NCBI GenBank assembly: GCA_903856295.1
Contig: CAIOBP010000189.1
Coordinates: 1 to 32,211, forward strand
Direction of reading: 5' to 3'
DNA length: 32,211 nt
DNA from: an uncultured Rhodospirillales bacterium
Lineage (GTDB): Bacteria; Pseudomonadota; Alphaproteobacteria; Azospirillales; Azospirillaceae
Part shown: positions 2,126-27,620 of the stretch, piece by piece
Layout of the letters: each line of letters starts with the position of its first letter
How positions within the stretch are numbered: position 1 is the stretch's first letter
Notes under the pieces: model-generated
What the model was told of the DNA's origin: nothing
Seen by the model: the letters and a program-made list of their open reading frames with translations, nothing else
Databases searched by the model: none
Position numbers and translations under genes: made by a program

Positions 2126-2618
2126 GACCAGGGTGCCTTTGTTCGGGGATTCGGTGCTGCCGGGGTTCGAACCGGCGCAGGGGGTGTTTGGCGGGTTTGA
2201 CCGGCTGGCGGAATTGAGCCGTCCCAGCCCGGCGATGCAGCACCGGGTTTACGTGGCAGCGCTCAGAAAATCGACGGGACGGCTCCGTGAGGCGGTGCCG
2301 GAGCTGGGGGCGCTGATCGCCCTGGCCGGGCAGCGCTGGGCGGCCGGATTGCGCGGGTTGTACCCGGCGCACACGGTCAAGCTGGTGATGCGCGACTTTC
2401 ACGCGCTGGGCCTGCCGGTGGCACAGCGCACGGTCGAGGGCTGGCTCGAAGGGCAGTCGCCCCGGCTCGGGCACTTTATCGCGGCGGTGCAGCTGTATGG
2501 CTGGGAGTTCGGGGCGGCGGTGATCGCGCCCGGCTCGGAGGTGGCGCAGCGCGAGGTGCTGCGCAGCGAGATGCGCCGGCTGGCGCAGGAGTTGGATCGG
2601 GTGTCCGGGGAGGTTTGA
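2118..2618 (+). CDS. Putative HTH-containing early protein
   Basis: This 166-residue protein has a central segment (VMRDFHALGLPVAQRTVEGW followed by LEGQSPRL and HFIAAVQLYGWEF) that reads like a helix-turn-helix in which a recognition helix precedes a WLEG turn. The C-terminus (EVAQREVLRSEMRRLAQELD) is a probable coiled coil that could allow dimerisation. The ATG at 2118 has GAGGAGGGG eight bases upstream and overlaps the previous stop; longer in-frame starts would run back through the preceding gene. The location in the early operon suits a transcription factor such as a CII analogue. I infer DNA binding only from the motif; the target is unknown. Confidence 0.6.
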   Translation: MGRTRVPLFGDSVLPGFEPAQGVFGGFDRLAELSRPSPAMQHRVYVAALRKSTGRLREAVPELGALIALAGQRWAAGLRGLYPAHTVKLVMRDFHALGLPVAQRTVEGWLEGQSPRLGHFIAAVQLYGWEFGAAVIAPGSEVAQREVLRSEMRRLAQELDRVSGEV

Positions 2619-2620
2619 CG

Positions 2621-2731
2621 ATGGGCGAGTCCGAGACGGTGCGGGTGATGGCAGCCGAATTCCTGGCCCTTCTGTTTTTGGTTGCGGGCTGCTGGTGCGC
2701 GATGGTGCTGGCCTGGGCGGCGCTGCCATGA
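2621..2731 (+). CDS. 36-residue membrane microprotein
   Basis: A very short gene encodes a protein with a polar N-terminus (MGESETVRV) and one hydrophobic span (FLALLFLVAGCWCAMVLAWA). Two cysteines sit within the span. A strong Shine-Dalgarno sequence, GGGGAGG, ends seven bases before the ATG. The stop overlaps the next gene's ATG as ATGA. The reading frame exactly bridges two well-supported genes with no other use for this DNA. Function unknown; a single-span inner-membrane protein is the only supported statement. Confidence 0.6.
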   Translation: MGESETVRVMAAEFLALLFLVAGCWCAMVLAWAALP

Positions 2732-3633
2732 GCACGAGCGATTTCATCGCGCGCATGGATCGGTACGTGCGGGCGCGGATCGCGGAGCGGCCGGCGCTGC
2801 TGGTGCCGTTTTTTTTGATGGCCGGCCATGGCTATGAGCATCTCGACCGGCCGTTGATCAGTGACGGGCTGTGGGATGAGCTGTGCCGATATCTCGACCA
2901 TGCTTGGGATGAGATCGAGCATCCGCACAAGGCGTTGATCCGGCGCGAGCATTTGTCGGCGGGCACGGCGATGGGGCTGACGGTCGAGGTGCTGCCGGAG
3001 ATGGTCAAGGCGGCGAGCAGGCGGTTGCTCGCCGAGGGGCCGCCGCCCGGCAGCGAGGGCGCGCTGCTGCCCTGGTACGATGCCCGGCAGGCCGGTCCGG
3101 TGCTGGCAGCGGTGCTCGGCTGGCGGCTCAAGGGGCTCGACGTGCTCGACGCGCCGCCGCCGCGGCGGCCGGCGGCATGGCAGGCGTTTGTGCGCACCTC
3201 GTTGTGGGACCGCAAGAGCCTCTCGGCCAATGGCATGGAGGTGACGCTGCGGGGTCAACTGCCGATGATCGAGGCCAAATACCAGCCCGACGAGTGGTGG
3301 CAAGTGCTGGCGGTGGGGGATGATGTCTATGACGCGATTGGCGATGCCCGACGCTGGCTCGATGCCCGGCCGGATCAACCGATGCAGGTTCCGGGAGTGC
3401 CGGAGCAGCGCGAACCGCTGGCTGCGCGTGCCGTGGGGCTTTCGGCCCCGGCAGCGCCTGCGGTGGCTGTTCGCGCGCCAGCCCCGGCCGTGCGTGCTGT
3501 GGCTGCGGCTCCGGCACCGGCACGACCAATAGCCACCCCCGGAGCGGCCCGGGTCGCCGGGGAGCGGACCGGCACGGGGGCGTCGCGCCCACCGACGCCG
3601 GCCGGCGCGTCCGGCCAGCTCAGCCTGTGGTGA
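2728..3633 (+). CDS. Early DNA-metabolism protein with clamp-binding-like C-terminus
   Basis: This 301-residue protein begins with a helical segment (about residues 15-65) containing LDRPLISDGLWDEL and DEIEHPHKALI. This resembles domain Ia of NAD-dependent DNA ligases and related short phage proteins, but the ligase catalytic core is absent. The middle part has conserved-looking tryptophan-rich patches (DEWWQVLAV). From about residue 225 an alanine/proline-rich, probably disordered linker leads to a terminal GQLSLW. That ending resembles the bacterial sliding-clamp motif QL(S/D)LF. The simplest inference is a replication- or repair-associated protein that docks on host DnaN. It follows the microprotein with an ATGA overlap; ATG 2728 is preferred to an upstream GTG inside that gene. 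Confidence 0.6.
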   Translation: MSTSDFIARMDRYVRARIAERPALLVPFFLMAGHGYEHLDRPLISDGLWDELCRYLDHAWDEIEHPHKALIRREHLSAGTAMGLTVEVLPEMVKAASRRLLAEGPPPGSEGALLPWYDARQAGPVLAAVLGWRLKGLDVLDAPPPRRPAAWQAFVRTSLWDRKSLSANGMEVTLRGQLPMIEAKYQPDEWWQVLAVGDDVYDAIGDARRWLDARPDQPMQVPGVPEQREPLAARAVGLSAPAAPAVAVRAPAPAVRAVAAAPAPARPIATPGAARVAGERTGTGASRPPTPAGASGQLSLW

Positions 3634-4503: not shown

Positions 4504-5177
4504 TGGCGCAGCGCGGGCAGAACCGAAGCACGGCGGTGATGAACCGGCGGGTGGAGGCTCCCGAGAGCCTCGACTATTTTCCGACGCCGCCCTGGGCGAC
4601 GCGGGCGTTGTGCCGGCATATCCTGGAGCCGGCGGACTGGTTGAGCCGGAGCGTCTGGGAGCCGGCTTGCGGCGAGGGCCACATGGCTCGGCCGCTCGGT
4701 GAATTCTTCGATCTCTGCATGGCGTCCGATATCTATCCCTATGGTCATGGTGCGATTTGCGATTTTCTGGGCGGGTTGCACCAAGCCGAGCACGCGCCCG
4801 CCGACTGGATCGTCACCAATCCGCCCTTCAATCTTGGCGAGGCGTTCGTGCTGCGGGCACTCTCGCTGGCCCGCTGCGGGGTGGCGATCTTCTGCCGGAC
4901 CAATTTTGCCGAGAGCGAAGGCCGGTACACGAGGTTATTCACCCCGTATCCGACCTCAGCCGAGGCGATCTTTGTCGAGCGGGTCAACATCGTCAAAGGC
5001 CGGCTCGATCGCCGCGCCTCGAATGCCACCAGCTATTCTTGGTTCGTCTGGCGCCGGGACCATGTCGGGCCAACGCTGCGTCTGCGAGTGCCGCCCTGCC
5101 GTGCGGCGCTGGAGCGGGATGAGGATTACCCGGTCGCGCCCACGGAACCGCTGGAACTGTTTGCGGAGGCATGTTGA
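4503..5177 (+). CDS. Orphan adenine-specific DNA methyltransferase
   Basis: This 224-residue protein carries the two hallmark motifs of an amino-methyltransferase. The AdoMet-binding motif is EPACGEGHMA at about residues 53-62, and the catalytic motif IV is TNPPFN at about 105-110. A YFPTPPW segment near residue 25 is typical of phage adenine methyltransferases of this compact type. The expected reaction is N6-methylation of adenine in DNA from S-adenosylmethionine. No restriction endonuclease is present nearby, so it probably protects phage DNA or modulates replication or transcription rather than being half of a restriction system. The target sequence cannot be read from the gene. It sits immediately upstream of the replication initiator, whose ATG overlaps its stop. 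Confidence 0.8.
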   Translation: MAQRGQNRSTAVMNRRVEAPESLDYFPTPPWATRALCRHILEPADWLSRSVWEPACGEGHMARPLGEFFDLCMASDIYPYGHGAICDFLGGLHQAEHAPADWIVTNPPFNLGEAFVLRALSLARCGVAIFCRTNFAESEGRYTRLFTPYPTSAEAIFVERVNIVKGRLDRRASNATSYSWFVWRRDHVGPTLRLRVPPCRAALERDEDYPVAPTEPLELFAEAC

Positions 5178-6460
5178 TGACAGAAGCCCTGCCACCACCG
5201 CTGCTGCCGCCTTATGTTTGGCTGGGAGGCTTTCCCTATACCCAGCTCCATGGCGATTTGCTTTTTACCTCGGAGACGTGGATTTGCGCCTCTGACGCAG
5301 CGCGGGTGGCATACCTTAAGCTGTATTGGGAGGCGTTCAAGTCGCACCCGGGCGGCTCGCTGCCCTCGGATGATCGCATGCTGGCCGAGCTGGCCGGCTA
5401 CGGCACATGGCCGGGGGCGGTGCGGGCGTGGCGGCGGATCAAGAAGACGGTGCTGGCCGAGTGGGTGCTGTGCTCGGATGGCCGCTGGTGGCACCCGTTT
5501 CTGGCCGGGCGGGTGGCGGCGGCGTGGAATCGGATGCAGGAGGATCGCTGGGAAGCCGAGAAGGCCCGGATCACCCGCGCCCATCAGCGGGCCTGCAAGG
5601 CGGCGCGGGCCTTGGATCAGGCGCAGCCCGATGCGCCGAAGATGCCGCCTCAGCCGAGCTTTGTCGAGGTCCGCGAGGTGGTTTTGAGTGGCGGTGTCGC
5701 GGCGACCGAGGGTGATATTTCGGCGCCTGTCGCGACGACAGAAGGCGTTGTCGCGGCGACCGAGGGTGATTGTCGCGGGTCTGTCGCGACGACAGAAGGC
5801 GTTGTCGCGGCGACAGAGGGTGATTGTCGCGGCGATTTGGCTCTTAATAAGAGAGATAAGAGAGAAAGAAAAAGGGTGGGTAGGTTGGCGCTGGATCCGC
5901 AAGAGGCCGCGACGGCGGCGGATGACGCGGCGACAGCGGACCCGGCAGAGGCGCTGATCGAGCTGTTTGATGCGGCGATGGTGCGGCATTGGGGCGCGGT
6001 GTCGTCGCGACAAGGGCCGGATGGGTCTGACCTGTCGATGGCGACCGACTGGCTGTTGGCCGGGGTTGACGCTGATTTGCTCGCCAAGGTTTGCGACGCA
6101 CAGTTCCGGCGCATGGTGGCGCGGCGGGTGGCACCACCGTTTTCGCTGCGCGGACTCGACGAGGATGTGCGGCGGGCGGTGGCGGCGGCGCGGGCTAAGC
6201 CCCCCGGCGCTCCGGCCGATCACCCGCTGGCGATGCCCGAGGGGTTCCCGGTCGCGGTCGCTGCCCTGGTCGGTCGGCTGGGGCGACAGCGCTTTGCCTC
6301 GTGGGTGTCGCCGCTGGTCGCGGTCGATGATGGCACCCGGGTCACGGTGCGGGCGCCGACGCTATACCACCGCGACTATGTGGCGACGCATTTGGCCCAT
6401 GATCTCGGGCCGTTGTTCGGCTGTCGGCGAATTGATTTCGAAACGGGAGGTGCGGCGTGA
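5177..6460 (+). CDS. O-like replication initiator (DUF1376-like N-terminus, DnaA-N-like C-terminus)
   Basis: The 427-residue protein has three parts. Residues about 10-130 resemble DUF1376 proteins (VAYLKLYWEAFKSHPGG, LPSDDRMLAELAGYG, DGRWWHPFLAGR). Residues about 172-225 are a low-complexity repeat encoded by DNA iterons. Residues about 355-427 resemble the DnaA N-terminal domain (LGRQRFASWVSPLVAV, VTVRAPTLYHRDYVATHL), which in host DnaA contacts DnaB and other partners. This suggests a phage initiator that binds its own intragenic origin and recruits host helicase, like lambda O. No helicase or loader is encoded nearby. ATG 5177 is preferred to 5171 because GGAGG at 5165-5169 is seven bases away and the start overlaps the methyltransferase stop. 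Confidence 0.75.
   Translation: MTEALPPPLLPPYVWLGGFPYTQLHGDLLFTSETWICASDAARVAYLKLYWEAFKSHPGGSLPSDDRMLAELAGYGTWPGAVRAWRRIKKTVLAEWVLCSDGRWWHPFLAGRVAAAWNRMQEDRWEAEKARITRAHQRACKAARALDQAQPDAPKMPPQPSFVEVREVVLSGGVAATEGDISAPVATTEGVVAATEGDCRGSVATTEGVVAATEGDCRGDLALNKRDKRERKRVGRLALDPQEAATAADDAATADPAEALIELFDAAMVRHWGAVSSRQGPDGSDLSMATDWLLAGVDADLLAKVCDAQFRRMVARRVAPPFSLRGLDEDVRRAVAAARAKPPGAPADHPLAMPEGFPVAVAALVGRLGRQRFASWVSPLVAVDDGTRVTVRAPTLYHRDYVATHLAHDLGPLFGCRRIDFETGGAA
5695..5840 (+). repeat. 54-bp tandem repeat, about 2.7 copies
   Basis: Units start at 5695, 5749 and 5803. Each is built from 22-bp, 11-bp and 21-bp subunits, and all but one of the 11-bp subunits begin with TGTCGCG. The copies differ at a few bases, so the DNA pattern is kept better than expected for a protein linker. 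The encoded peptide repeats VAATEGD and VATTEG. Confidence 0.9.
5695..6012. other. Candidate intragenic replication origin with iterons
   Basis: Inside the initiator gene, TGTCGCG-type units recur from 5695 to 5840 with a 54-bp period. The 13-mer TGTCGCGACGACA occurs at 5728-5740 and 5782-5794, and its exact reverse complement occurs at 6000-6012. Immediately after the repeats, 5836-5872 is purine- and AT-rich and includes the perfect hairpin CTCTTA-A-TAAGAG at 5841-5853. Iterons plus an adjacent AT-rich segment within the initiator gene is the lambda O/ori arrangement. The origin role is inference from architecture. Confidence 0.65.
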
Positions 6461-7164
6461 TGGGCCATCAGGATGTTCGGCTGGCGATCGGCATCGAGGC
6501 GCTGGTGATCTGGGCGGTGCGCGATCAGTGCTGTGACCGGGAAATTCCGGCGATGTTCGAAGCCGGGCTGAGCCGGAGCGGCGGCGATGGCGTGGCGGCG
6601 CTGATGCGCCGGGCGCGGCTGGGCCGCCGTGTCGATGGCGGCGGCGCCTATGCCGGCCGGCCGAGCAGCCTGCATCCCGATGCCGAGGCGGTAGCCGATG
6701 CGCTCGATCGGCTGGATTTCGAAACCAAACAGCTGGTCGAGGATCAGGCGCGGATCGGCGAGGCGCCGGTGTGGAGCGCCGGCCCGCAGGCGCTGGTACC
6801 AGTGGCCGGTGGTACCGGCTCCCATGTGGTGGTCCACGAGTGGGAGCCGGCGCCGGCCGGGGTGGCGGTGGTCAACGGCAAGGCGTTTGGCCCGGATGGC
6901 CGCTTGCCCGCCGGCAGCTGGTGTCTGCGCCGCGATGCGCGCTGCGACGGGACGCTGGTCGAGACGGTGCATGTGCGGGTCAGCTATTGCCCGGTGCGCG
7001 CCGAGCCGCCGGCCGAGTATTGCGAGTTCGTCAATTTGCTCTATCGCCGCTGGTGGCGGGGCCTGCGGCGGCTGCAGCGACTGATTGCTGTCGAGTCGCG
7101 GCCATTGCTGGCGCACCGGTTGACTCCGTTTGATCTGTGCGCTCAGCCTTGGGTGCGGCCTTAG
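6460..7164 (+). CDS. Hypothetical protein at the end of the early operon
   Basis: Family not recognised. The 234-residue protein has a helical N-terminus (IGIEALVIWAVRDQCCDREI), several cysteines (CCDR, CLRRDARC, SYCPVR, EYCEF) and a basic, tryptophan-containing C-terminal helix (LLYRRWWRGLRRLQRL). Spaced cysteines and basic helices would be compatible with nucleic-acid binding. The location just before the late region is where lambdoid phages place a late-gene activator or antiterminator such as Q, but I see no motif proving this. GGGAGG at 6445-6450 precedes both an in-frame GTG (6457) and the chosen ATG (6460), which overlaps the initiator stop. The 3' end meets the leftward HTH gene, with a 4-bp overlap. 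Confidence 0.65.
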   Translation: MGHQDVRLAIGIEALVIWAVRDQCCDREIPAMFEAGLSRSGGDGVAALMRRARLGRRVDGGGAYAGRPSSLHPDAEAVADALDRLDFETKQLVEDQARIGEAPVWSAGPQALVPVAGGTGSHVVVHEWEPAPAGVAVVNGKAFGPDGRLPAGSWCLRRDARCDGTLVETVHVRVSYCPVRAEPPAEYCEFVNLLYRRWWRGLRRLQRLIAVESRPLLAHRLTPFDLCAQPWVRP

Positions 7165-7388
7165 TCCAGGCCCCGGCAAGCCAAGACCACCGTTTTTGGC
7201 ACGGCGGACTCTCCAGCCTCATAGGCCGCCACCGTTCGCAGGCTAATGCCCAGTCTCTCGGCGGCGATGGTTTGCGTCAGTCCCTTGGATTTGCGCCAGG
7301 CGCTGAAAGCATCGGGGGACATCTCGAGAACTGGGGTAATTTCCCGGAGCTGGCCGGCCGTTATTGTCAACCCACAAAATGCGATCAT
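7161..7388 (-). CDS. Second HTH (XRE-family) transcriptional regulator
   Basis: This 75-residue leftward gene encodes a compact helix-turn-helix protein. MSPDAFSAWRKSKGLTQTIA followed by AERLGISLRTVAAYEAGESA is a clear XRE-type HTH with the LTQ...A..LG.S..TV..YE.G pattern. No dimerisation or protease domain is attached. ATG at complement 7386-7388 is chosen because the region upstream is AT-rich control DNA; no strong ribosome-binding site is visible, and an internal ATG at the MSPDAF position would still retain the HTH. It converges on the early operon and diverges from the terminase operon, so it is well placed to repress or time the late promoter. Confidence 0.75.
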   Translation of the reverse strand: MIAFCGLTITAGQLREITPVLEMSPDAFSAWRKSKGLTQTIAAERLGISLRTVAAYEAGESAVPKTVVLACRGLD

Positions 7389-7488
7389 CGCATCTTTTTG
7401 GGTTAAATATCGGCGATCAAAAATAACTGCTTGACATTTTCCGAGCCTGAGTTGACTTTCCGCTTCAGGCGAAATTTGTGTTTGTGCT
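7389..7488. promoter_or_regulatory. Control region between HTH regulator and terminase operon
   Basis: This AT-rich stretch holds TGGGTTAAATATC at 7399-7411, an exact 13-bp match to 973-985 beside CI. A palindrome GCGATCATCGC at 7381-7391 overlaps the HTH gene start. Two rightward -35-like boxes, TTGACA at 7431-7436 and TTGACT at 7452-7457, are followed by no strong -10. It is a likely operator and a possible late promoter region; which protein binds is unknown. Confidence 0.5.
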
Positions 7489-7522
7489 GACCCGGCCGGG
7501 AGACCCCCGCGCCGGGTCTTTT
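7489..7522 (+). terminator. Rho-independent terminator before the terminase operon
   Basis: GACCCGGC (7489-7496) pairs with GCCGGGTC (7511-7518) around a 14-nt loop and is followed by TTTT. It lies downstream of the -35-like boxes and upstream of the small terminase start, so it could be a checkpoint where late transcription is blocked unless antiterminated, as at lambda tR'. Confidence 0.75.
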
Positions 7523-7538
7523 GCGTTCTGGGGGTGTA

Positions 7539-8144
7539 ATGGGCGCTGACGGCGGTGAGCAGGAATTGAGCGCTGCGGGCTGGATGCGCTATTCGTTCCG
7601 CCTCTCCCCAGAGCAGCAAGCGTTCGTTGATGCCTATCTCGCCAATGGCGGCAATGGGACCAAGGCTTACCTCATCGCCTATCCGGAGTGCACGCGCGAG
7701 TCGGCTCGCCGGCTGGCGTCCGAACTGCTCAAAAATCCGGACATATCCTTGACACTTTCCGAGGCCAAGCGCGGTGCGGTCAAGCGGATGCTGGGGCGGT
7801 TCGAGGTGACGGCGGAGAGCTGGCTCGCGGTCCAGGCGGCCATGGCCTTTTTCAACCCGACCGACATTTTGTCGTATGACGGCCGGAGCCTAACCCTTAA
7901 GCCGACGACGGAAATCCCGCCGGAAGCGCTGGTGGCGATCAAGTCGGTCGAGGTTGCCGAGGGCAAGCTCAAGGTGCAGTTCGTCGATCGCCAGTCGGCG
8001 ATGGATGCGCTCGGGCGCTACCTCGGTCTGTTCAAGGATCGCTCCGAGGTCACCCTCGATGTCAGCCGCACGCTGGCGGATCAGCTGGGCGCGGCGCAGG
8101 CACGGCTGGCGGCGGCGGTGCCGGAGGGCTCGGCCCATGGCTAA
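7539..8144 (+). CDS. Terminase small subunit
   Basis: The 201-residue protein matches the Terminase_2 type of small subunit. Its N-terminal DNA-recognition region reads LSPEQQAFVDAYLANGGNGT and ASELLKNPDISLTLSEAKRG. Its C-terminal half has the family pattern of DILSYDGRSL, PPEALVAIKSVEV and VDRQSAMDALGRYLGLFKD. The small subunit recognises the packaging site on phage DNA and regulates the large subunit. ATG 7539 follows GGGGGTG; an upstream TTG at 7521 sits in the terminator and is not used. The stop overlaps the large-subunit start by eight bases. Confidence 0.88.
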   Translation: MGADGGEQELSAAGWMRYSFRLSPEQQAFVDAYLANGGNGTKAYLIAYPECTRESARRLASELLKNPDISLTLSEAKRGAVKRMLGRFEVTAESWLAVQAAMAFFNPTDILSYDGRSLTLKPTTEIPPEALVAIKSVEVAEGKLKVQFVDRQSAMDALGRYLGLFKDRSEVTLDVSRTLADQLGAAQARLAAAVPEGSAHG

Positions 8145-9654
8145 GGCAGCGAGCGCGGGGCCGGCCGAGGTCGAGCGGCGGCTGATCGAGTTCGTCGCCG
8201 GTTTCCGCCACGATCCGCTGGGCTTCGCGCGGGCGATGTGGCCGTGGTCCGAGCCGGGGCCGCTGGCGGCGGCGGCGGGACCGCGCCGCTGGCAGACCGA
8301 CATCCTGACTGAGATCGGCGCCCACCTCGCCAACCCCGCGAACCGCCACCAGCCGTTGCGCATCGCGGTGTCCTCGGGCCACGGCATCGGCAAGTCGGCG
8401 CTGATCGGCATGATCGATCATTGGGCGCGCTCGACCTGCGTCGATCACCGCACCGTGGTCACCGCCAACACCGGGGTGCAGCTGTTCAAAAAGACCTTAC
8501 CCGAGCTTGGGCGCTGGACGCGCACCGCGATCAACGCCCACTGGTTCGCGGTCGAGAGCACCTCGATCTCGGCGCGGGCGGTGGGGCATGAGGGATCGTG
8601 GCGCACCGATGGCGCGACCTGGAGCGAGCACAACACCGAGGCCTTCGCCGGGCTGCACAATCAGGGCCGGCGGATTTTGATGGTGTTCGATGAGGCCTCG
8701 GCAATTGCCGACAAGGTGTTCGAGGTCGCCGAGGGCGCGCTGACCGACGAGGGCACCGAGATCATCTGGCTGGTGTTCGGCAATCCCACCCGCAACACTG
8801 GCCGCTTCCGCGAGTGCTTCGGCAACGGCAAGTTCCGCCACCTGTGGCGGACTCGGCAGATCGACAGCCGCACGGTCGAGGGCACCAACCGCGCCTATCT
8901 TGACGGGCTGGTGACAACCTGGGGCGAGGACAGCGACTACGTCAAGGTCCGGGTGCGCGGGTTGTTTCCCTCGGCGTCGGACCGTCAGTTCATCAGCGAC
9001 GATCTGGTGTCCGGGGCGATGGACCCGGCGCGCGAGGTCCATGTCGATCGCAACGATCCGCTGATCATGGGCGTCGATGTGGCGCGCGGTGGCGCCGACG
9101 GCACGGTGCTGCGCTTTCGGCGCGGCCGGGATGGCCGTTCGATTCCGCCGGTGCGCTTGCGGGTGCGCGACACCATGGAGATCGCGGCGCGGGTGGTCGA
9201 GCAGCGGACGCGCTGGGGCGTCGATCAAATCTTCGTCGATGGCGGCGGCGTCGGCGGCGGCGTCTGTGACCGGCTGCGCCAGCTCGGGGTTCCGTACATC
9301 GAGGTCCAGTTCGGCGCCAGGGCTGATGGTGGCGCCCGGGTCGAGGGCGAGGTGTTTGCCAATAAGCGCGCCGAGATGTGGGGCGCGGTCCGGATTTGGT
9401 TGAAAACCGGCACCCTTGAGGATGATCCGCTGCTGCGCGGCGATCTCTGCGGCCCGGAATACGGCTACGTGCTGCGCGATGGCCGCGACGCCATCCTGCT
9501 GGAGTCCAAGGACGCCATGCGCGATCGCGGCCTGTCCTCACCCGATGATGGCGACGCCTTCGCCCTGACCTTTGCCTATCCGGTGACCCTGGCCAGTGCC
9601 CGACCCGGGCCGGGCCAGACGCGGCCGAGTTGCGACTACGATCCCTTTTCGTGA
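8137..9654 (+). CDS. Terminase large subunit
   Basis: The 505-residue protein is the packaging motor. Its ATPase domain has a Walker A motif (SSGHGIGKSAL, residues 79-89) and Walker B (ILMVFDEAS, with Asp185-Glu186). The C-terminal RNase H-like nuclease has acidic residues in MGVDVARGGAD (Asp314), IFVDGGGVGGG (Asp368) and SPDDGDAFAL near the end. It hydrolyses ATP to pump DNA into the prohead through the portal and cuts the concatemer. ATG 8137 overlaps the small-subunit stop. Length and motif order are normal for the family. Confidence 0.95.
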   Translation: MAKAASAGPAEVERRLIEFVAGFRHDPLGFARAMWPWSEPGPLAAAAGPRRWQTDILTEIGAHLANPANRHQPLRIAVSSGHGIGKSALIGMIDHWARSTCVDHRTVVTANTGVQLFKKTLPELGRWTRTAINAHWFAVESTSISARAVGHEGSWRTDGATWSEHNTEAFAGLHNQGRRILMVFDEASAIADKVFEVAEGALTDEGTEIIWLVFGNPTRNTGRFRECFGNGKFRHLWRTRQIDSRTVEGTNRAYLDGLVTTWGEDSDYVKVRVRGLFPSASDRQFISDDLVSGAMDPAREVHVDRNDPLIMGVDVARGGADGTVLRFRRGRDGRSIPPVRLRVRDTMEIAARVVEQRTRWGVDQIFVDGGGVGGGVCDRLRQLGVPYIEVQFGARADGGARVEGEVFANKRAEMWGAVRIWLKTGTLEDDPLLRGDLCGPEYGYVLRDGRDAILLESKDAMRDRGLSSPDDGDAFALTFAYPVTLASARPGPGQTRPSCDYDPFS

Positions 9655-18222: not shown

Positions 18223-20580
18223 ATGCAAATTCCGACCTACGGCCCGGCGCCGACGATAGCCCCGAGCGGTGCCCCCGGCACTTATCAGTCTATTCAGACC
18301 AATGGCGACGAGTTTGGTGCCGGTATCGGTCAGAGCGCGCTCGGCGTTGGACAGGCTCTTCAGCATGCCGCCAACCAGACCTTCGAGACCGGGCTCAAAG
18401 CGCAGGCGATAGAGAATAAGACGGCGGCCAAAGACCTCGTCTACAACCAGTATCTGCCGGCGCAGAACGCCATCCTGTTCGGGACCTCGGACAAGCCCGG
18501 GTATTACGGCAAAACCGGCCAGGATGCCCTGAGCAGCCGCGAGGCCACGACCAAGGCCCTGACCGATTTGCACGCCAATCTGATCGGCTCGATCAGCAAT
18601 CCGGCGGTCAAGAGCATGGTCGAGGACTTCGTGACCCCGGAAATGCGCCGTGGTCTCGACGGCATCAGCAGCCATGCCAGCAAGGAATTTTTGACCTATC
18701 GCGACACGGTGTCGAGGGCGAGTACCGAGTCGGCGCTGAACAATGCCGTGCTGCATTACAGCGATCCCGACCAGTTCGGCACCTATCTCGACCGAGCCAG
18801 CAACGAGGCGCTGTCCAACGCCAAAGCCCAGGGCATCCAGGACCCGGCGGCGCTCGATACCATCGCTTCCGGGATCAGGGCCAAGGGCGTCGAAGCCGGG
18901 GTGATGCGCTTCCTAACCAACAATGACCCGGATGGGGCGAGAGGCTTTTACGAGCAGCACAAGGCGGTGCTGCGCGGCAATGCCCTGCTCGATGTCGAGC
19001 AAAAGCTGCATGCGACCAACACGGCGGCCCTCGGGCAGGCCAATGGCGCGGCCCTGCTCGGCGGCCAACCGCTCCCGGACCGTCCGACCGCGCTCGGGGT
19101 GCCGCGCGCCCAGGTCCAGAGCGCGCTGATCGGCGCCGCCAAAAGCAGCGGCGCCGATCCCTCCCACGCTCTGACCGTCGCCGAAATCGAAAGCTCGACC
19201 GGCAGCAATCTCGGCACCATCGGCAATCTCGGCCAGATCAAGGGCGGCACCACCAAGGCCGGGGATGTCGCCGGGCAGGCCCGCGACCTGTGCGCCGAAT
19301 GGCAGCGGGTCGGGCCGATCGCCGACCAGGCGGTGGGTGGCACGGCGCAGCCCTGGCAGCGCTATGTCGTCTATCAGCAGGGGCAGGGCGGCGGCCCGGC
19401 GCTGCTCCAGGCCGATGCCAAGGACAACGCGGTGGATGTACTGGCGCCGCTCTATAAGAGCCGCGACATCGCCCAATCGGCGATCACCGGCAATGGCGGC
19501 CGGCCCGATATGACCGCCGGTCAGTTCCTCGACTTCCTCCAGAGCAAATGGAACCAGAATGCCCGGCGCTGCGCCGTCGATCCCAATGCCCCGGCGACGG
19601 CCCCGGCCACGCCCCTGATGGCGCCCCAGCCGGCAACCAATCCGCATCAGGCATTGATCGAGTTCGATAAGGTTTATGCCCCGGCGCTTGATCGGGCCAA
19701 CGCGATTCCGAACCTCGCCGAGCGCGATGCCACCGTGCATTATCTGGAGACGCAAAAGGCCGTGCGCACCCAGGCCGCCGCCGCCTGGACGCAGCAAACC
19801 ACCGATGCCCTGATGAAACTCGGCATGGACCCGAAGTTTACCAATATCTCCCAGGTGCCGCCGGACATGGTGCCGGCGATGTCCGAAAACCCGCACATGG
19901 CGATTTGGTTGGAAAACCGCGCGAAATCGAATGCCGGGGGCGGTGACAGCAAGAGTTTCGACGATAACGCCAAGGCCGTCTACTATGATGCTTTGGGCAA
20001 GATGGCGAATGACCGCAAGGGCTTTGCTGCGGAAAACTTGACCGACCCGAAATATTCCCACGCGTTGCCGGATAATTACCTGCATGAGCTGATGAATAAG
20101 CAATTCGTTATTCGGGAAAACTTGAACAGCGGCGACACCGAGGTTTCGCCCCGGTTGCTCTCTTCGGCGAAGAGCATTGCGCACCCGATGTTGGAAGCCG
20201 CCGGGATCAAAACCCAGGTGACGGATAAGTCTCCTGATAATGTCAAGCAAACCTATAACCAGTTCATCGGCCGCCTGACCTCTGACCTTCAGGACTATAA
20301 GATTGCGCATAAAGGTGACGATCCCGACGCCGTTGGCATGCGGTCGATCGTTTCATCTCTGTTGACCCAAGGGCTGCAACGGGATTCCGGCTGGATATGG
20401 GACCGCGAGGTGCGGAATTTCCAGGTTTCGCCCGATCAGTTCTACCTGAAGCCCGCCGCCGCGGAGCTGCCCGATCTCAGGCGCCGGTTCCTGGCGGCCA
20501 ACGGCCGGCTCCCGAAGACTGATGATGAGCTGGTGCGCGCTTATACCAAATGGAAGACGCTGACCGGAGGGGCGAAGTAA
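18223..20580 (+). CDS. Internal core protein (gp15-like) with lytic-transglycosylase-like segment
   Basis: The 785-residue protein is mainly helical and lies at the T7 gp15 position. Residues about 305-395 look like a soluble lytic transglycosylase module: GVPRAQVQSALIGAAKSSGA, ALTVAEIESSTGSNLG with the expected catalytic Glu in an ES pair, then GNLGQIKGG and PWQRYVVYQQGQGG. Such a domain would cut peptidoglycan during DNA entry. In T7 this activity resides in gp16, so here it seems to have moved to the neighbour. A proline/alanine-rich linker (PATAPATPLMAPQP) follows at about residue 460. AAGGA precedes the ATG. The stop overlaps the next ATG. Confidence 0.75.
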   Translation: MQIPTYGPAPTIAPSGAPGTYQSIQTNGDEFGAGIGQSALGVGQALQHAANQTFETGLKAQAIENKTAAKDLVYNQYLPAQNAILFGTSDKPGYYGKTGQDALSSREATTKALTDLHANLIGSISNPAVKSMVEDFVTPEMRRGLDGISSHASKEFLTYRDTVSRASTESALNNAVLHYSDPDQFGTYLDRASNEALSNAKAQGIQDPAALDTIASGIRAKGVEAGVMRFLTNNDPDGARGFYEQHKAVLRGNALLDVEQKLHATNTAALGQANGAALLGGQPLPDRPTALGVPRAQVQSALIGAAKSSGADPSHALTVAEIESSTGSNLGTIGNLGQIKGGTTKAGDVAGQARDLCAEWQRVGPIADQAVGGTAQPWQRYVVYQQGQGGGPALLQADAKDNAVDVLAPLYKSRDIAQSAITGNGGRPDMTAGQFLDFLQSKWNQNARRCAVDPNAPATAPATPLMAPQPATNPHQALIEFDKVYAPALDRANAIPNLAERDATVHYLETQKAVRTQAAAAWTQQTTDALMKLGMDPKFTNISQVPPDMVPAMSENPHMAIWLENRAKSNAGGGDSKSFDDNAKAVYYDALGKMANDRKGFAAENLTDPKYSHALPDNYLHELMNKQFVIRENLNSGDTEVSPRLLSSAKSIAHPMLEAAGIKTQVTDKSPDNVKQTYNQFIGRLTSDLQDYKIAHKGDDPDAVGMRSIVSSLLTQGLQRDSGWIWDREVRNFQVSPDQFYLKPAAAELPDLRRRFLAANGRLPKTDDELVRAYTKWKTLTGGAK

Positions 20581-23500
20581 TGGATCAGAGTTTCGAGGAT
20601 TTCCTGCGCGCCGACCAGCAGCCCGCGCCGGCGCCGACATCGGGCATGGCGTTTGAGGATTTCCTGCGCGCCGATCGGGCCATGACCCAATCCCAGGCGG
20701 CGGGCGCGGTCATCGGCGCTGCTGGCACCAATCCAGACCAAGAGGCCAAGGCCGTCCAGGTCGGGAAGCAACTCGGATTACCGGCGGCGGTGGTCCGTAC
20801 CGATCTCCCCCAGCACGAGCAGGACGCGGCCCTACAGCGCAATGTCGCATTGCTGCGCAACAACCCGGCTTTGGCCGAATGGGTGGCGGCCAACCCCGAG
20901 CGCACGAAGCTTGCTCATGATGATTTCGGGTCTCTGGCCAATATCGAGACCGCGATAACCCGGTGGGGCATGAGCCTTGGCACGCTGGCTCCCATGACCA
21001 GCACGCCTGGACATGATCTCCTTAAAGCCGCATTTCCGGCATTCGAGAATGCTTGGTCCGCAGGCATGGACGAAGGCGCGCAGCAAAATGTCCAGGGCTT
21101 TGCGGCCTATGACAGCCGCGGCAAGGTTCATCCGCCGGAAGCGCACCGTACCGACTATGGCAATCTGCTGTACAACGCCACCAACTGGATCGCTTCGAAC
21201 ATCGGCGGCGTCTACGACCTGGGAGCGCGCGCGGTCCCTTGGGCCATCTCTGGAGCTTCGTCAGGCGCCGCGATCGGCGCCATTGGCGGGCCGTTGGCGC
21301 CGATCAGCTCCGCCGCCGGGGCCGTGGCCGGCTTCGGTTCCGGCTTCTTGGGTAAGTTCTTCAGCGATAATTTCAAGATCGGGGCCGGCGAAGTGATGGC
21401 GGCACACGATCAGAGCCGCAGTCGTGAGGGGCTGGAAGTCGATCCGACCGTGGCTCAGGCGTCGGCGGTGGTTGGCGGTCTGCTCTATGCCGGCTTCAAT
21501 AGCTTCGGGCTCGGGCATTTCAGCTCCGCCGCCGCCGCGTCGGCGGCCAAGCTGTTCGCCCGCGACGCCGTGACCGAGGCGGTGACCAAACCGACGGTCC
21601 AGGCGGCGATCGCCAAAACCGCCGGCACCCTGACCAGGACCGGGCTTGAGGGCGGCGCGCTCGGCGTGCTGGTCGAAAGCTCGAAGATTGCCGGCGAGCA
21701 GCTCGGACGCATGCTGTCCTCGGGCGATTTTGCCACCATCCTCAACGATCCCGAGCAGCGGAGCCAAGCGCTTGACCGGGTGGTGCAGTCGGCCGAGCAA
21801 ATGGCGCTGCTGGCCGGCGCCTTTCATGCCGTGCCGATGGTCTCGACCTTCGCCGCCGATCTGTTGCACGCCCGTCAGGCCCACATCGACGCCGGCAATC
21901 TCCAAGCGGTGGTCGATGGCACCACCGACAGCAAGCTGCGCGGCCGGGCTCCTGACGCCTTCACCGATTTCCTGCGCCAGCAGCTCGACGGCACGCCGGT
22001 CGAACACCTCTATCTGCCCGGCGAGAAGGTCCAGGAGTTGTACCAGTCGTTCGGCTTCGATCCGCACGCGCTGGATGACGATCCGCTGTTCAACTTCGTC
22101 CCCGACATGAGCCACCAGCTTGAGCAGGCGGTGGCCACCGGCGGCGATGTCAAAATCCCGGCGGCGGACTATGTCAGCCGCTTTGCCGGCACCCCGGTCC
22201 ATGAGGCGCTCAAGGGCGATCTGCGCACCCGCCCGGATGGCTTTAGCCTCAACGATGCCGCCCGAGCCGTCGAACACCAGCGCAGTTTGCGCGAGTTGGC
22301 GGTGGACATCCAGCGTCAGTCCGAACAGGCGGGCAAACAAGCCGAGCTGGCGCAGCAGGTTTACCGCGATCTCCAGGACAAGTTGCGCGCCGCCGGCTAT
22401 GGCTCCGAGGCGGCCAATAAGCAGGCGGCCCTGCTCGCCGCCCATTACCAGACCCGGGCCGAGCGCATGGAGGGCAAGCTCGGCAGCGCCCTTGACGCCT
22501 ATCGCGCGGCCAATCTTGAGGTCCGTCAGGTGCTGCCCGACAGCCTGCACGGGGTCGATGGCGATCAGCTCAATCAGATGATCGCGGCGCTCAAAGACCC
22601 CCAGGCGCGCAAGGTGCCGACCGAGCGCGCGGCGCTGGGGCCGAGTCTGGCCGAGTTCGTCGCCAAGCGCGGCGGTGTTCATGATGCCGGCGGCGACCTC
22701 CGGGCGATGGATGCGCATCTGTGGCACCGGGGCAAGCGCGGCATGCCCCGGTTGCTGCGCGAGGTCTCGGAGTATGACCCGCTCAAGGCCCATGAGTTCG
22801 GCCAGGATGAAACCGCTCACGCCGCCTGGGAGGCGGGCTATTTTCCCGATCACGCCGAGCGGCCGGAGATCCGCGATTTTCAGGAAGCTCTGCGCACCGA
22901 GCTGGCGGGCAAGCCGCGCTATGCCGACCACGCCTATAGCGGCGAGCTGGGCTGGCAACAGGCCCTCGGCGATCTCGAACAGACCCTGGACCGGTTGGGC
23001 ATCGACCCGAAGAAGGCCAGTGTCGCCGAAATCCGCACCGCGCTTGCCCATTACGCCCAGGATGCGGTCGGTGGCTTCGAACAGGGGGAACGACCGTCAA
23101 GGCCGGCCATCGCTCTGGCCGGGGATGAGATTGCGCCGCGTGGCAGCGATGCCAAAACCGCGCGCGATGCCGCCGTGGCGTGGTATCGGGCCAATCTCCA
23201 GGGGACCAAGGCCGAAACCTCGATCGGTCCGGTCGAGTTCACCGGTCGCGGTCGAGGTAAGATGAAAATCGGCCTTTCCGACCCGGAAACCGCACGGTAT
23301 GTCGCGTCAATCCGTGATGTGCTCGAACGGGGCGAGTACAAGGGCAGCCGAGATAATGCCAAGCTGGACAGTAAGCCAACAGTGCTGCGCTATCATCGGT
23401 TTGAGGCCGAAGTCGCAATCGGGAGCGGGGAGCCGCATCGGATCGCAGTGCTCGTGGAAGAACACACGAACGGTAAGCTGTTCTATGACCTATATCGAGA

Positions 23501-26500
23501 TCCCCCGGAGACTAATCCCGCAGTTTCAAGCACGGTATTCTCCGGGGGAGCCGAAGGCGGTAAAACCACCTACCATCAGACAATAGCATCAGTAGGCGGT
23601 GATTTCAATCTGAGCCTCTCACAATCCGCCGCCGAAGGCCGGGCGCGGGGCTCGATCGTGTTCGAGCGCGGGCGCACGGTCATCAACCTCTTCGAAAAGC
23701 GCGACCTTTCGACCCTTCTGCACGAATCCGGGCATTTGTTCCTGGAAGAGCTGGTGTCCGATGCCGCCCATCCGGAGGCGCCCGAGGGCGTGCGCGCCGA
23801 TCTTGCCGCGACCCTGAAATGGCTGGGGGTGGAGGATGCCGGCCAGATCGGCCGCGAGCAGCACGAGCAGTTCGCCCGGGGCTTCGAGACTTACCTCATG
23901 GAAGGCAAGGCGCCCTCGCTGGCCCTGGGCCGGGTGTTCGAGACGGTCAAGGCCTGGCTGACTGGCATCTATCGCAGCCTCGCTGCGCTCAAGGCGCCGC
24001 TGTCGCCCGAAATGCGCAGCGTGTTCGATCGTATGCTGGCGAGCGACGACGCCATTCGGGTTGCGCGCGAGCGGCAGCGCCTGGGCGCGCTGTTCCATAG
24101 TGCCGAAGATGCCGGCATGAGCGACCGCCAGTTCACCAAATATCAGGAGGTGGCGCGGGCGGCCAAAGAGCGGGCAAACCAAGCTCTGCTCGCCAAAACC
24201 ATGGCCGAGGTCCGGCGGCGGCGCACCGAGCAGTGGAAGACCGAAGAGGCGGGGGTGCGCGAGGAGGCGGCGCGCGAGGTCAACCGCCGGCCCGACTTCC
24301 AGGCCCTGCATTATCTGCGCACCGGCACGTTTCTCGACGGCGCTGCCACCGAGGGGCTGGAGCGGATCAAGCTCAACCGGGCCGATATCGTGGCCGCGTT
24401 CGGCGGCAACGAGGCCATCCTCAAGCAACTGCCCAGGGGCGTGCCGCCCTATGTGGTGGAGAGTGGCGGCGTCCACCCCGATCTCGTTGCCGGGCTGTTC
24501 GGCTACAAAACCGGCAAGTCGATGCTGACCGCGCTGCGCAAGCTGGAACGGGAGGCGCAGAAGATCAAAGTCGAGCAGCCGGGCGACAAGCGCTCGCTGC
24601 GCAACCGGCTGATCGATGAGAAAACCGCCGCGCGCATGGCCGAGCGCCATGGCGATATCCTGGCCGATGGCAGCATCGAGGCCGAGGCGGTGGACGCCAT
24701 CCACAATGACGCATCCATGACCCAACTCGGCGAGGAGCTGCGGGCGCTGGGACGGCGCGAGCGGAAACCACGGTCCGAGGCTGCGGGGGAGCCAGCCGGA
24801 GAGCCGGCCCCCGATCCGACGGCATGGCCGCAATCGCCGGTCGAGTTCGCCCGTGAGTGGGCGGCCGAACGGGCGGCGGCCCTCAGGGTCGAGGATGCCA
24901 CCCCGGCCACCGCCGCCGCCCATGCTCGCGACGAGGCCAAGGCCGGGCGCGCGGTCGAGCGGGCGCTGCTCAAGGGCGACCGTGCCGAGGCGATGCGCCA
25001 GAAGGAACGGCAAATCCTCAGCGCAGCCCTCTATCGCGCGGCCAAGGACGCGGTGACCGAGGCCGAGGACGCCCTTGACACCTTCCGCAAGCTGGGGCGC
25101 AAGCTGACGGTCGCGGGCATGGAACAACCCTATCTCGATCGCATCCATCAGCTGATCGGCGCCTTCGGCCTGCCGCTCAAGCGCAACCTCGCCGAGCTGG
25201 AGCGCGGGCTCGGTCGCGAAACCCTGGAAGGCTTTGTCGGCCGCAAGCTGGCCGAGGGCCGGGAGATCACCGTCGATCCGGCGCTTTATCAGTTCTCGAC
25301 CGCCAAGCCGGTCGGGCAGCTGACCATTGCCGAGTTGCGGGCGCTCCGTGATGCGATCAAATCGCTGGCCCATAACGGCCGCGAGGAACAGACCATCCTC
25401 GTTGACGGCAAACGGGCTGACCTCAAGGGGCTGGTCGAGGAGGCGGTCAACCAGGTCTCTCAGTTGCCCCAGCGCGAGGTGCCACCGGAGATCAACCCCG
25501 GCACGGCGCCGGGGCTGCGCGGGCTGGCCGAGAAGATCGGCGGCATTGCCCGCGCCTGCGACTCCAGCTTGCTCAAAATGGAGCAGCTCTTCGACTGGCT
25601 CGATCACCGCAACCCCAACGGTCTCTTCAACCGCACGGTGTTCAACCGGCTGAAGCTGGCGCAGCACCGCGAGAACGACCGGCTGTTGGCGGTGTCCAGG
25701 CGCCTGGAAGAGCTGGGCAAGGCGCAGCCCGAGGGCTGGAGCAAAACCCTGGATGAGCGGTTGACGCTGCCCGAGTTGCGCGACCCAAGTAAGCCCGGTG
25801 AGACGGTCTATCGCAAGAAAGACCTGCTCGCCATGGCGCTCAATGTCGGCAATGCCGACAACTTCAAGAAGCTGGTGGTCGGCTATAAATGGGCGACGCT
25901 CGACGACGCCCGCTCGATCGATGCCGCCAAATCGCGGGTGATGGCGGTGCTGGACCGCGAGTTGAGCAAGCCCGATTGGAACTTCGTGCAAGGGGTGTGG
26001 GATATCTTCGAGAGCTTCTCGCCCGAGGTCGATGCCCTGCAACGCCGGCTCAGCGGCATCGGCATCACCAAGGTCGAGGCCTCGCCGGTCACGACTCGCC
26101 ACGGCGCGTTGCGCGGCGGTTATTACCCGGTGGTGTTCGACCCGATGAAATCGCCGAAGGCGGCCCACAACAAGGCCGGCGGCGAGGCTTTGTTCGAGGA
26201 TGGCTATTTCCGGCCCGGTACCGCCAAGGGTCACACCATCGCCCGCGTCGAAGCCAACGATCCGCTACACCTCAGTCTCGATATCATCCCCTATAAGCTG
26301 CGGCAGGTCGTGCATGATCTGGAATTCCGCGAGGCGATCATCGACGCCGATAAGCTGCTTTCGAACGATCAGGTCAAGCAGGGCATCACGGCGGCCTTCG
26401 GCCCGGAATACACCGCCCAGCTCCGGCCCTGGCTGCAATCGATCGCCAACGACGCCAACCGCAACGACCGCACCCTCGCCGGCATCGACAATTTCCTGCG

Positions 26501-27620
26501 GCAAGCGCGGGTCAACGCCACCGTGGTCGGCATCGGCTTTCGGGTGTCTACGGTGCTCAAGCACGGGGGCTCCGCGCTCGGCATGTCGGTCGGCGAACTG
26601 GGGCCGAAATGGTCGCGGTTGGCCTGCGCCGAACTCTACGGCTCAAACGGCACCTATGGCCGCACCCGCGCCATGATCCTGGAGAAGTCGGGCGAGCTGC
26701 GCCACCGCATGGACAGCATCGACCGCGATGTCCGCGAATCGCTGCGCACGGTGGCCGGCGAGTTCGGCTATGGCAACGGCGCGATGGCAACCGCCCAGTG
26801 GTTGCGCGCCGAGGCGGTGCATTACAGCCATTACATGGTCGCCCGTGCCGATATGGAGAGCGCTTATTTTGTCTGGCTCGGCGCCTATCGCCGGGCCGAG
26901 CAGGCGGGCAGGACCGAGGGCGAGGCGGTGGCGGCGGCCGATAAGCTGGTGCGCCAAGCCCATGGCGCCCAGGGCATCATGGATCTGGCCGCGATTCAGC
27001 GCGGACCCGAGGCCCTGAAACTAGCCACCATGTTCTATGGCTTCTTCAACCACAACTACAACCGGCTGCGCGACACCGGCCGGCTGGCCGGTGAAGGGGT
27101 GGACAAATGGAAGGCCGGCGACCGGGCCGGCGCGGGCAAGGACTTCACCCTGGTGCTGGCGCGCTCCATGACCTACCTGCTGATGCCGGCGTTGATCGAA
27201 GCCATGGTCTCCGAGGGCTTCCCCAACGACGAGAACGAGGAAAGCTGGCCGGGCTGGGCGGCGCGCGCCCTGACCGCCCAGGTCACCGGCGGTGTGCCGG
27301 TCGTCCGCGACATCGTCAAGGCCGAACTCAGCGGCCACAATTACGAGATGACGCCGGTCGAGCATGCGGTCAACTCGCTGCTGAGCTTCGCCTTCAAGGA
27401 TATTCCGGATCAGCTCGGCCTGACCGATCACCAGCCTTCGGAGCGCTTCCTGCGTCATGCCATCGAGACGCCGGGCTACATTCTCGGCCTGCCCACCGGC
27501 GCCCCGGCCGGCACCGCGCAATATCTCTGGGATTATATGGACGGCCGGGAAGACCCGCAGAATTTCCTCGACTTCCTACGCGGCGTCGCCTTCGGCCCGA
27601 CACCCAAAACCAAGCACTGA
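20580..27620 (+). CDS. Giant polyvalent internal virion protein (gp16-like position) with LPD3-like and HExxH domains
   Basis: At 2346 residues this is the largest gene, in the T7 gp16 position. The N-terminus carries the peptide FEDFLRAD twice within 30 residues. Residues about 215-261 are a glycine-zipper-like hydrophobic segment (GASSGAAIGAIGGPLAPISS) that could enter membranes. Residues about 863-1015 resemble large-polyvalent-protein domain LPD3 (WYRANLQGT, IGPVEFTGRGRGKMKIGLSD). LHESGHLFLEEL follows, with His1048-Glu1049 and His1052 as an HExxH zinc motif and Glu1103 in FARGFETYL as a plausible third ligand. Long helical regions fill the rest. Virion location and ejection into the cell are inferred from position; peptidase activity from the motif. 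ATG 20580 overlaps the preceding stop. Confidence 0.85.
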   Translation: MDQSFEDFLRADQQPAPAPTSGMAFEDFLRADRAMTQSQAAGAVIGAAGTNPDQEAKAVQVGKQLGLPAAVVRTDLPQHEQDAALQRNVALLRNNPALAEWVAANPERTKLAHDDFGSLANIETAITRWGMSLGTLAPMTSTPGHDLLKAAFPAFENAWSAGMDEGAQQNVQGFAAYDSRGKVHPPEAHRTDYGNLLYNATNWIASNIGGVYDLGARAVPWAISGASSGAAIGAIGGPLAPISSAAGAVAGFGSGFLGKFFSDNFKIGAGEVMAAHDQSRSREGLEVDPTVAQASAVVGGLLYAGFNSFGLGHFSSAAAASAAKLFARDAVTEAVTKPTVQAAIAKTAGTLTRTGLEGGALGVLVESSKIAGEQLGRMLSSGDFATILNDPEQRSQALDRVVQSAEQMALLAGAFHAVPMVSTFAADLLHARQAHIDAGNLQAVVDGTTDSKLRGRAPDAFTDFLRQQLDGTPVEHLYLPGEKVQELYQSFGFDPHALDDDPLFNFVPDMSHQLEQAVATGGDVKIPAADYVSRFAGTPVHEALKGDLRTRPDGFSLNDAARAVEHQRSLRELAVDIQRQSEQAGKQAELAQQVYRDLQDKLRAAGYGSEAANKQAALLAAHYQTRAERMEGKLGSALDAYRAANLEVRQVLPDSLHGVDGDQLNQMIAALKDPQARKVPTERAALGPSLAEFVAKRGGVHDAGGDLRAMDAHLWHRGKRGMPRLLREVSEYDPLKAHEFGQDETAHAAWEAGYFPDHAERPEIRDFQEALRTELAGKPRYADHAYSGELGWQQALGDLEQTLDRLGIDPKKASVAEIRTALAHYAQDAVGGFEQGERPSRPAIALAGDEIAPRGSDAKTARDAAVAWYRANLQGTKAETSIGPVEFTGRGRGKMKIGLSDPETARYVASIRDVLERGEYKGSRDNAKLDSKPTVLRYHRFEAEVAIGSGEPHRIAVLVEEHTNGKLFYDLYRDPPETNPAVSSTVFSGGAEGGKTTYHQTIASVGGDFNLSLSQSAAEGRARGSIVFERGRTVINLFEKRDLSTLLHESGHLFLEELVSDAAHPEAPEGVRADLAATLKWLGVEDAGQIGREQHEQFARGFETYLMEGKAPSLALGRVFETVKAWLTGIYRSLAALKAPLSPEMRSVFDRMLASDDAIRVARERQRLGALFHSAEDAGMSDRQFTKYQEVARAAKERANQALLAKTMAEVRRRRTEQWKTEEAGVREEAAREVNRRPDFQALHYLRTGTFLDGAATEGLERIKLNRADIVAAFGGNEAILKQLPRGVPPYVVESGGVHPDLVAGLFGYKTGKSMLTALRKLEREAQKIKVEQPGDKRSLRNRLIDEKTAARMAERHGDILADGSIEAEAVDAIHNDASMTQLGEELRALGRRERKPRSEAAGEPAGEPAPDPTAWPQSPVEFAREWAAERAAALRVEDATPATAAAHARDEAKAGRAVERALLKGDRAEAMRQKERQILSAALYRAAKDAVTEAEDALDTFRKLGRKLTVAGMEQPYLDRIHQLIGAFGLPLKRNLAELERGLGRETLEGFVGRKLAEGREITVDPALYQFSTAKPVGQLTIAELRALRDAIKSLAHNGREEQTILVDGKRADLKGLVEEAVNQVSQLPQREVPPEINPGTAPGLRGLAEKIGGIARACDSSLLKMEQLFDWLDHRNPNGLFNRTVFNRLKLAQHRENDRLLAVSRRLEELGKAQPEGWSKTLDERLTLPELRDPSKPGETVYRKKDLLAMALNVGNADNFKKLVVGYKWATLDDARSIDAAKSRVMAVLDRELSKPDWNFVQGVWDIFESFSPEVDALQRRLSGIGITKVEASPVTTRHGALRGGYYPVVFDPMKSPKAAHNKAGGEALFEDGYFRPGTAKGHTIARVEANDPLHLSLDIIPYKLRQVVHDLEFREAIIDADKLLSNDQVKQGITAAFGPEYTAQLRPWLQSIANDANRNDRTLAGIDNFLRQARVNATVVGIGFRVSTVLKHGGSALGMSVGELGPKWSRLACAELYGSNGTYGRTRAMILEKSGELRHRMDSIDRDVRESLRTVAGEFGYGNGAMATAQWLRAEAVHYSHYMVARADMESAYFVWLGAYRRAEQAGRTEGEAVAAADKLVRQAHGAQGIMDLAAIQRGPEALKLATMFYGFFNHNYNRLRDTGRLAGEGVDKWKAGDRAGAGKDFTLVLARSMTYLLMPALIEAMVSEGFPNDENEESWPGWAARALTAQVTGGVPVVRDIVKAELSGHNYEMTPVEHAVNSLLSFAFKDIPDQLGLTDHQPSERFLRHAIETPGYILGLPTGAPAGTAQYLWDYMDGREDPQNFLDFLRGVAFGPTPKTKH

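Follow-up and report, generated by a model that had tools for sequence, protein, structure and literature searches.

A probable λ-type intragenic replication origin served by DUF1376 initiators in proteobacterial phages

The intragenic origin design is known from λ O and from the RepA_N initiator of plasmid pSK41. The origin of phage λ, as of Stx phages and other lambdoids, lies midway through the initiator gene (PMC6022878, PMC7466680), which is also the place of the probable origin at the locus described here, and contains inverted-repeat iterons and a 39-bp region of high AT content (PMC6022878). In pSK41, the N-domain of the RepA_N protein binds boxes in the centre of the rep gene and the origin-encoded middle part of the protein is a linker, and the pPR9 chimera represents a natural swap of N-domain and origin as one module (PMC5703833). 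The DnaA protein of E. coli binds DnaB through its domain I (PMC6127211). Here we describe a locus that, judged from its sequence, is very probably a λ-type intragenic theta origin of a phage or prophage, served by an initiator family other than that of λ.

The window, that is, the whole stretch of 32,211 bp that was analysed, is an entire contig of a 4,018,820-bp source genome. The contig is phage-coding, with genes for both terminase subunits (small and large) and for a head-tail adaptor lying downstream of the initiator gene; no overlap of its ends was found, so a closed circular genome is not claimed. Several further features were noted along it. A 2356-aa ORF (20550–27620) takes up about one fifth of the contig, 63-bp and 105-bp tandem repeats lie at 28423–28853 within ORF 27688–29481, and a perfect 71-bp tandem duplication near the contig end (31507–31648; 2.0 copies, 100%) is either a recent event or an assembly effect. 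ARAGORN places a tRNA-Glu (TTC) at 9081–9158 (plus strand) inside the predicted large-terminase ORF 7954–9654, which could be fortuitous folding or an unusual overlap. Positions 2695–3633 give a weak match to PF22745, the NAD+-binding domain of a DNA-ligase-like family (21.7 bits, cut-off 27), and no Rfam family was found within the window.

The initiator gene (5171–6460, plus strand, as are all features below unless stated) encodes a protein of 429 aa composed of a DUF1376 N-domain, a linker, a helical domain and a DnaA domain-I-like C-terminus. By Pfam it is a member of DUF1376 (PF07120; 34.3 bits against a curated cut-off of 30.1, E 3.2e-8), and it also matches PHROG 22470, ‘replication protein’ (5.9e-16). 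The N-terminal domain (aa 1–176; 5171–5698) is predicted to form a winged helix in a confident AlphaFold2 model (pLDDT 91) and is presumed to bind the iterons. Its best fold matches are the N-domains of staphylococcal RepA proteins, one of them in a Rep–DNA complex, which rank at the top yet are weak (Foldseek E 0.11 or worse, Z 4.4–5.1). Next follow a low-confidence linker predicted to be disordered (aa 176–253; 5696–5929; pLDDT <50), which is encoded by the origin region, and a helical C-domain (aa 255–345; 5933–6205) common to Azospirillum prophage initiators with other N-domains. The last domain (aa 352–426; 6224–6448), presumed to contact the helicase or DnaA, is a clear match to DnaA domain I by fold (4tps_B, Z 8.8, rmsd 3.1 over 75 residues) and belongs to DnaA_N when the C-terminal part is searched alone (24.9 bits, cut-off 24.6; 23.1 bits for the whole protein). 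Hence, the DUF1376 and DnaA-N assignments made in a preliminary description of this DNA hold by Pfam. At E values up to 0.1, DUF1376 and DnaA_N are the only Pfam matches of the protein: neither the λ O family nor the RepA_N profile (PF06970) is among them, nor are the AAA+ domain III and the DnaA-box-binding domain IV of DnaA, and the PHROG ‘O-like’ families match some relatives, not the window protein. The DnaA_N tail is rare in the DUF1376 family (3 of 120), the other members having other C-domains. No helicase loader or helicase gene was found adjoining the initiator gene, and the only match of the next ORF (6457–7164) is to PHROG 9306, whose function is unknown; a Pfam search of it gave no significant family. 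In Pseudomonas relatives, the initiator gene lies directly upstream of genes for a DnaC-type loader and/or DnaB. The host genome encodes DciA, and a search of it for a direct paralogue of the initiator gene gave only a 26-bp match.

The middle of the gene contains a 54-bp tandem array of 2.6 copies (5690–5832; TRF score 235), confirming the repeat built on TGTCGCG that had been reported there. Pattern searches identified the iterons TGTCGCGGCGACC at 5695–5707 and 5749–5761 (one mismatch each), TGTCGCGACGACA at 5728–5740 and 5782–5794 (perfect), and TGTCGCGGCGACA at 5803–5815 (perfect), together with the half-site TGTCGCG at 5771–5777 and the degenerate iteron TGTCGCGGCGATT at 5825–5837 (two mismatches), which adjoins the melting region. 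Two iterons are outlying: TGACGCGGCGACA at 5923–5935, past the polypurine tract (one mismatch), and TGTCGCGACGACA on the minus strand at 6000–6012. TGTCGCG starts at 5695, 5728, 5749, 5771, 5782, 5803 and 5825 on the plus strand and occupies 6006–6012 on the minus strand, these words being spread over all three reading frames. The palindrome TGTCGNNNCGACA, allowing one mismatch at most, has seven sites within 5695–6012, starting at 5695, 5728, 5749, 5782, 5803, 5923 and 6000, and zero elsewhere in the window; the spacings ahead of the tract are 33, 21, 33, 21 and 22 bp, which places these inverted repeats on one face of the helix, as in the λ design. Across the 4,018,820-bp genome, TGTCGCGRCGACA occurs at exactly four sites, all of them here (5728, 5782, 5803 and, on the minus strand, 6000), whereas the same pattern read backwards has no match. 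The inverted 13-mer that had been noted some 200 bp downstream is an exact copy, at 6000–6012, of 5782–5794, 205 nt further on; the inversion alters only the three-base centre, since the iteron site comes close to being a palindrome in its own right.

Immediately 3′ of the iterons, as in the λ design, lies a stretch that should melt easily and is purine-asymmetric and AT-rich. The computed duplex stability of the window is lowest at 5835–5874 for 40-bp segments, marking a presumed DNA unwinding element, and for 30-bp segments in the one that starts at 5844; 5838–5876 is 64% AT against a gene mean of 33%. The coding-strand polypurine tract (5849–5884) is the strongest purine run of the window, with a purine score of 25.5 and the runner-up at 14. 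The purine- and AT-rich segment of the preliminary description is present and holds the extremes of the window. The hairpin beside it corresponds to an AT-rich palindrome, CTCTTA-A-TAAGAG, at the junction of iterons and tract (5841–5853), which at 13 bp is too short for a strong hairpin. GC skew over the window, which had been suggested as a check, shows no switch at 5.8 kb. Within the initiator gene, all five arginine codons of the tract are AGA or AGG, compared with none of 34 elsewhere (Fisher p 1.7e-6), an enrichment that is partly circular since the tract was picked for its purines, so that only the zero outside it counts as independent evidence; in the other genes tested, AGA makes up 2 of 497 Arg codons. 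Analysed with the same scripts, λ ori yields 18-bp inverted-repeat iterons with starts 20, 24 and 23 bp apart, followed by coding-strand AAAAGAAAAAAGAAAAGA.

A search for related loci with the single initiator sequence returned none. A profile built on an alignment of 15 N-domains recovered 160 loci, on viral as well as genomic contigs, and a C-domain alignment recovered seven. The profile loci, Azospirillum prophages and named phages and plasmids together gave, once redundancy was removed, 145 DUF1376 initiator genes, which come from phages of alpha-, beta- and gammaproteobacteria. In most of these homologues, a polypurine tract on the coding strand comes after palindromic repeats; a qualifying tract is present in 114 of the 145 and absent from 31. 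The median purine score is 20.5 in the initiator genes and 9.0 in 241 control ORFs taken from these loci, and a score of at least 20 is reached by 55% and 0%, respectively. Similarly, an excess of 9-mer repeats over synonymous shuffles (z>3) is seen in 57% of the initiator genes and 10% of the controls. Among the 114 tract-bearing genes the tract has its median position at codon 188, repeated 8-mers concentrate from −140 to 0 bp relative to it (up to 0.20 per base, compared with 0.05 in synonymous shuffles), and AT content is highest at the tract end (0.60 against a gene mean of 0.37). Linkers with at least three palindromic sites number 51 of 114, compared with 7 of 222 control segments, and the distance from iteron array to tract falls in a narrow range with a median of 17 bp. 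While the protein sequences of the linkers vary, the DNA anatomy is kept. The comparison of homologues at DNA and protein level that had been proposed thus supports the early reading, the repeats of the tract-bearing genes being clustered, phased, often out of frame and linked to the N-domain; repeat-free homologues with an unrelated linker, which would have spoken against it, were not seen as a rule. A non-functional tandem duplication in a single degenerate prophage would fit the window array, which is a 54-bp tandem duplication, but is contradicted by the independent arrays, built on different words, that many homologues have at this position, and we consider it hardly credible.

Some individual loci of the survey deserve mention. 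A circular Herbaspirillum plasmid of 43 kb with phage genes carries an initiator gene with a very long tract; no other annotated initiator was found on it, although its gene table is incomplete, which is consistent with the DUF1376-type gene being the replicator of this plasmid. In phage Solano (OR683411.1), the DUF1376 initiator gene at 2501–3149 is missing from the annotation, which instead lists a small antisense ORF (2672–2965) and a downstream fragment and thereby conceals the conserved origin region. A phage with Synechococcus as its recorded host (PP438432.1) carries an initiator gene of 68% GC and of the proteobacterial DUF1376 type, and its host label may deserve a check. Four Azospirillum prophage initiators (L017, L020, L030 and L032) have another N-domain, with GTTCCGAAC-type iterons and a polypurine tract of the same kind, so that the tract is not confined to DUF1376.

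One could suppose that the repetition serves the protein, the linker being a low-complexity spacer whose duplication incidentally repeats DNA words; the linker is predicted to be disordered, and the 54-bp array is an in-frame duplication of 18 codons. However, the window words occupy all three frames, the repeat excess survives comparison with synonymous shuffles, and among homologues 55% of the 127 spacings between neighbouring iterons are not divisible by three. Instead, the distances between linker repeats cluster at 11–12, 21–24, 33–36, 45–46 and 57 bp with almost none between, and the same 127 spacings show helical phasing with a best period of about 11.25 bp (R=0.84), which is absent elsewhere in the gene (R=0.04) and persists in 56 representatives with dissimilar N-domains (R 0.67). 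Synonymous shuffles retain part of the 11–12-bp phasing (R 0.51), a portion of the repeats being in frame. Also, when 2.9 million viral contigs were scanned blindly for the 24-mer AAGGGACAGGGACAGGGACAGGGA, 78 loci were returned, of which 74 lie within DUF1376-like genes by a rough motif test and two of the remaining four (L243 and L302) are DUF1376 by eye. Its frames 0, 1 and 2 are used in 66, 9 and 3 of these loci, and the tract is translated as KGQGQ/GQGQ, GTGT or RDRD depending on the phage, indicating that selection acts on the nucleic acid. A protein-level origin of the repeats, contradicted by frames, spacings, tract peptides and shuffle excess alike, is very improbable. From these sequence comparisons, the tract appears to be frame-independent and nearly exclusive to the DUF1376 family in the blind scan, which is new.

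The repeat words differ between N-domain clades: iteron words are common to 4% of pairs at 50–60% N-domain identity, 51% at 70–80% and 100% above 90%, a co-variation that common descent explains in part. L013 and L017 form a natural chimera, with 638 bp of 92.6% identity that begin 8 and 3 bp behind their tracts, no similarity found upstream of the tract and unrelated N-domains. The iterons of L013 are of the CGTNACG type and those of L017 of the GTTCCGAAC type, and the breakpoint sits at the tract, N-domain and repeats having been swapped together. On this sequence evidence, N-domain and iterons travel together as a single cassette. The same observations bear on the proposal that the palindromes are operators for a phage repressor or for transcriptional autoregulation of the initiator, for which one might cite their symmetry and an HTH_3 regulator gene nearby (7161–7619, minus strand). 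Site sequence varies with the N-domain of the same protein, the sites of homologues lie mid-gene in helically phased arrays abutting the melting region, and the window has no site with at most one mismatch that is promoter-proximal or outside the array and its outliers; we therefore give operators little credence.

The tract is invariably on the coding strand, and a G4 motif occurs on this strand in 42 of 114 genes and on the template strand in none. This would suit an element working at the level of the mRNA or of an RNA:DNA hybrid, separately from the iterons, either through transcriptional activation by an R-loop or through internal ribosome entry at Shine–Dalgarno-like runs. However, the iteron array abuts the tract within narrow distances (median 17 bp), the chimera breakpoint joins iterons and tract, and an analogous tract is found in the λ unwinding element, making a separate RNA element unlikely. 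A role of RNA as origin helper is compatible with the origin reading and not exclusive of it.

For the preferred λ-type origin, we infer three steps, namely binding, melting and helicase recruitment. Dimers of the DUF1376 winged-helix N-domain would bind the phased palindromic iterons in their own gene and wrap the iteron DNA, whereupon the AT-rich/polypurine stretch at 5835–5884 would melt. The C-terminal part, with its DnaA domain-I-like end, would then recruit host DnaB, either directly or via host DnaA or DciA. This last step is suggested by the domain-I match, the binding of DnaB by DnaA in E. coli, the DciA of the host and the lack of an adjoining loader; it is the least certain of the three, with about even chances of being correct. 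More tentatively, the polypurine tract may be a dedicated frame-independent origin element of DUF1376 phages whose transcribed G-rich strand, often the G4-capable (GGGACA)n, keeps the origin open as an R-loop or G4, with the DnaA domain-I tail substituting for a phage helicase loader, a combination that is possible and, taken jointly, rather doubtful. Literature searches on DUF1376, on intragenic origins with polypurine or hexanucleotide repeats, and on phage G4 origins turned up no description of the element; the papers found to mention DUF1376 apparently do not treat origins, as judged by title and abstract.

DUF1376 proteins occur in many proteobacterial phages, a large and barely studied group, where they are labelled hypothetical or primosomal. 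The pattern amounts to a computable rule for locating the origin in these phages, and the N-domain/iteron cassettes are natural matched initiator/origin pairs for specificity work. By profile, the window protein is a direct member of the DUF1376/PHROG 22470 phage replication proteins. The λ layout recurs here in a family without a recognised sequence match to λ O: inverted-repeat iterons, whose starts are 20–24 bp apart in λ, precede an AT-rich tract that is purine-rich on the coding strand, and the iteron-encoded part lies between two protein domains. In contrast to λ, the N-domain is DUF1376, the C-terminus resembles DnaA domain I in its fold, the window has no P-type loader gene after the initiator gene, and the tract of many DUF1376 relatives is G-rich, (GGGACA/GGGAGA)n, instead of A-rich. 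The λ O/ori design proposed in the preliminary description is supported, whereas its ‘unrelated initiator architecture’ needs qualifying: the N-domain model is a winged helix whose best matches, weak as they are, come from staphylococcal RepA_N initiators, and these too have the origin in their gene. RepA_N systems share the layout within the gene and the module swap, and their N-domains give the top, if weak, fold match, but the window protein has no RepA_N Pfam match, its C-terminus is DnaA domain-I-like where that of pSK41 is DnaD-like, and its relatives belong to proteobacterial phages instead of Gram-positive plasmids. With DnaA the protein shares the domain I fold of its C-terminal 75 residues, but here domain I is C-terminal and the AAA+ and DnaA-box-binding domains have no Pfam match. 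Compared with these systems, what appears to be new is the DUF1376 family as initiator, the frame-independent G-rich tract and the DnaA domain-I tail.
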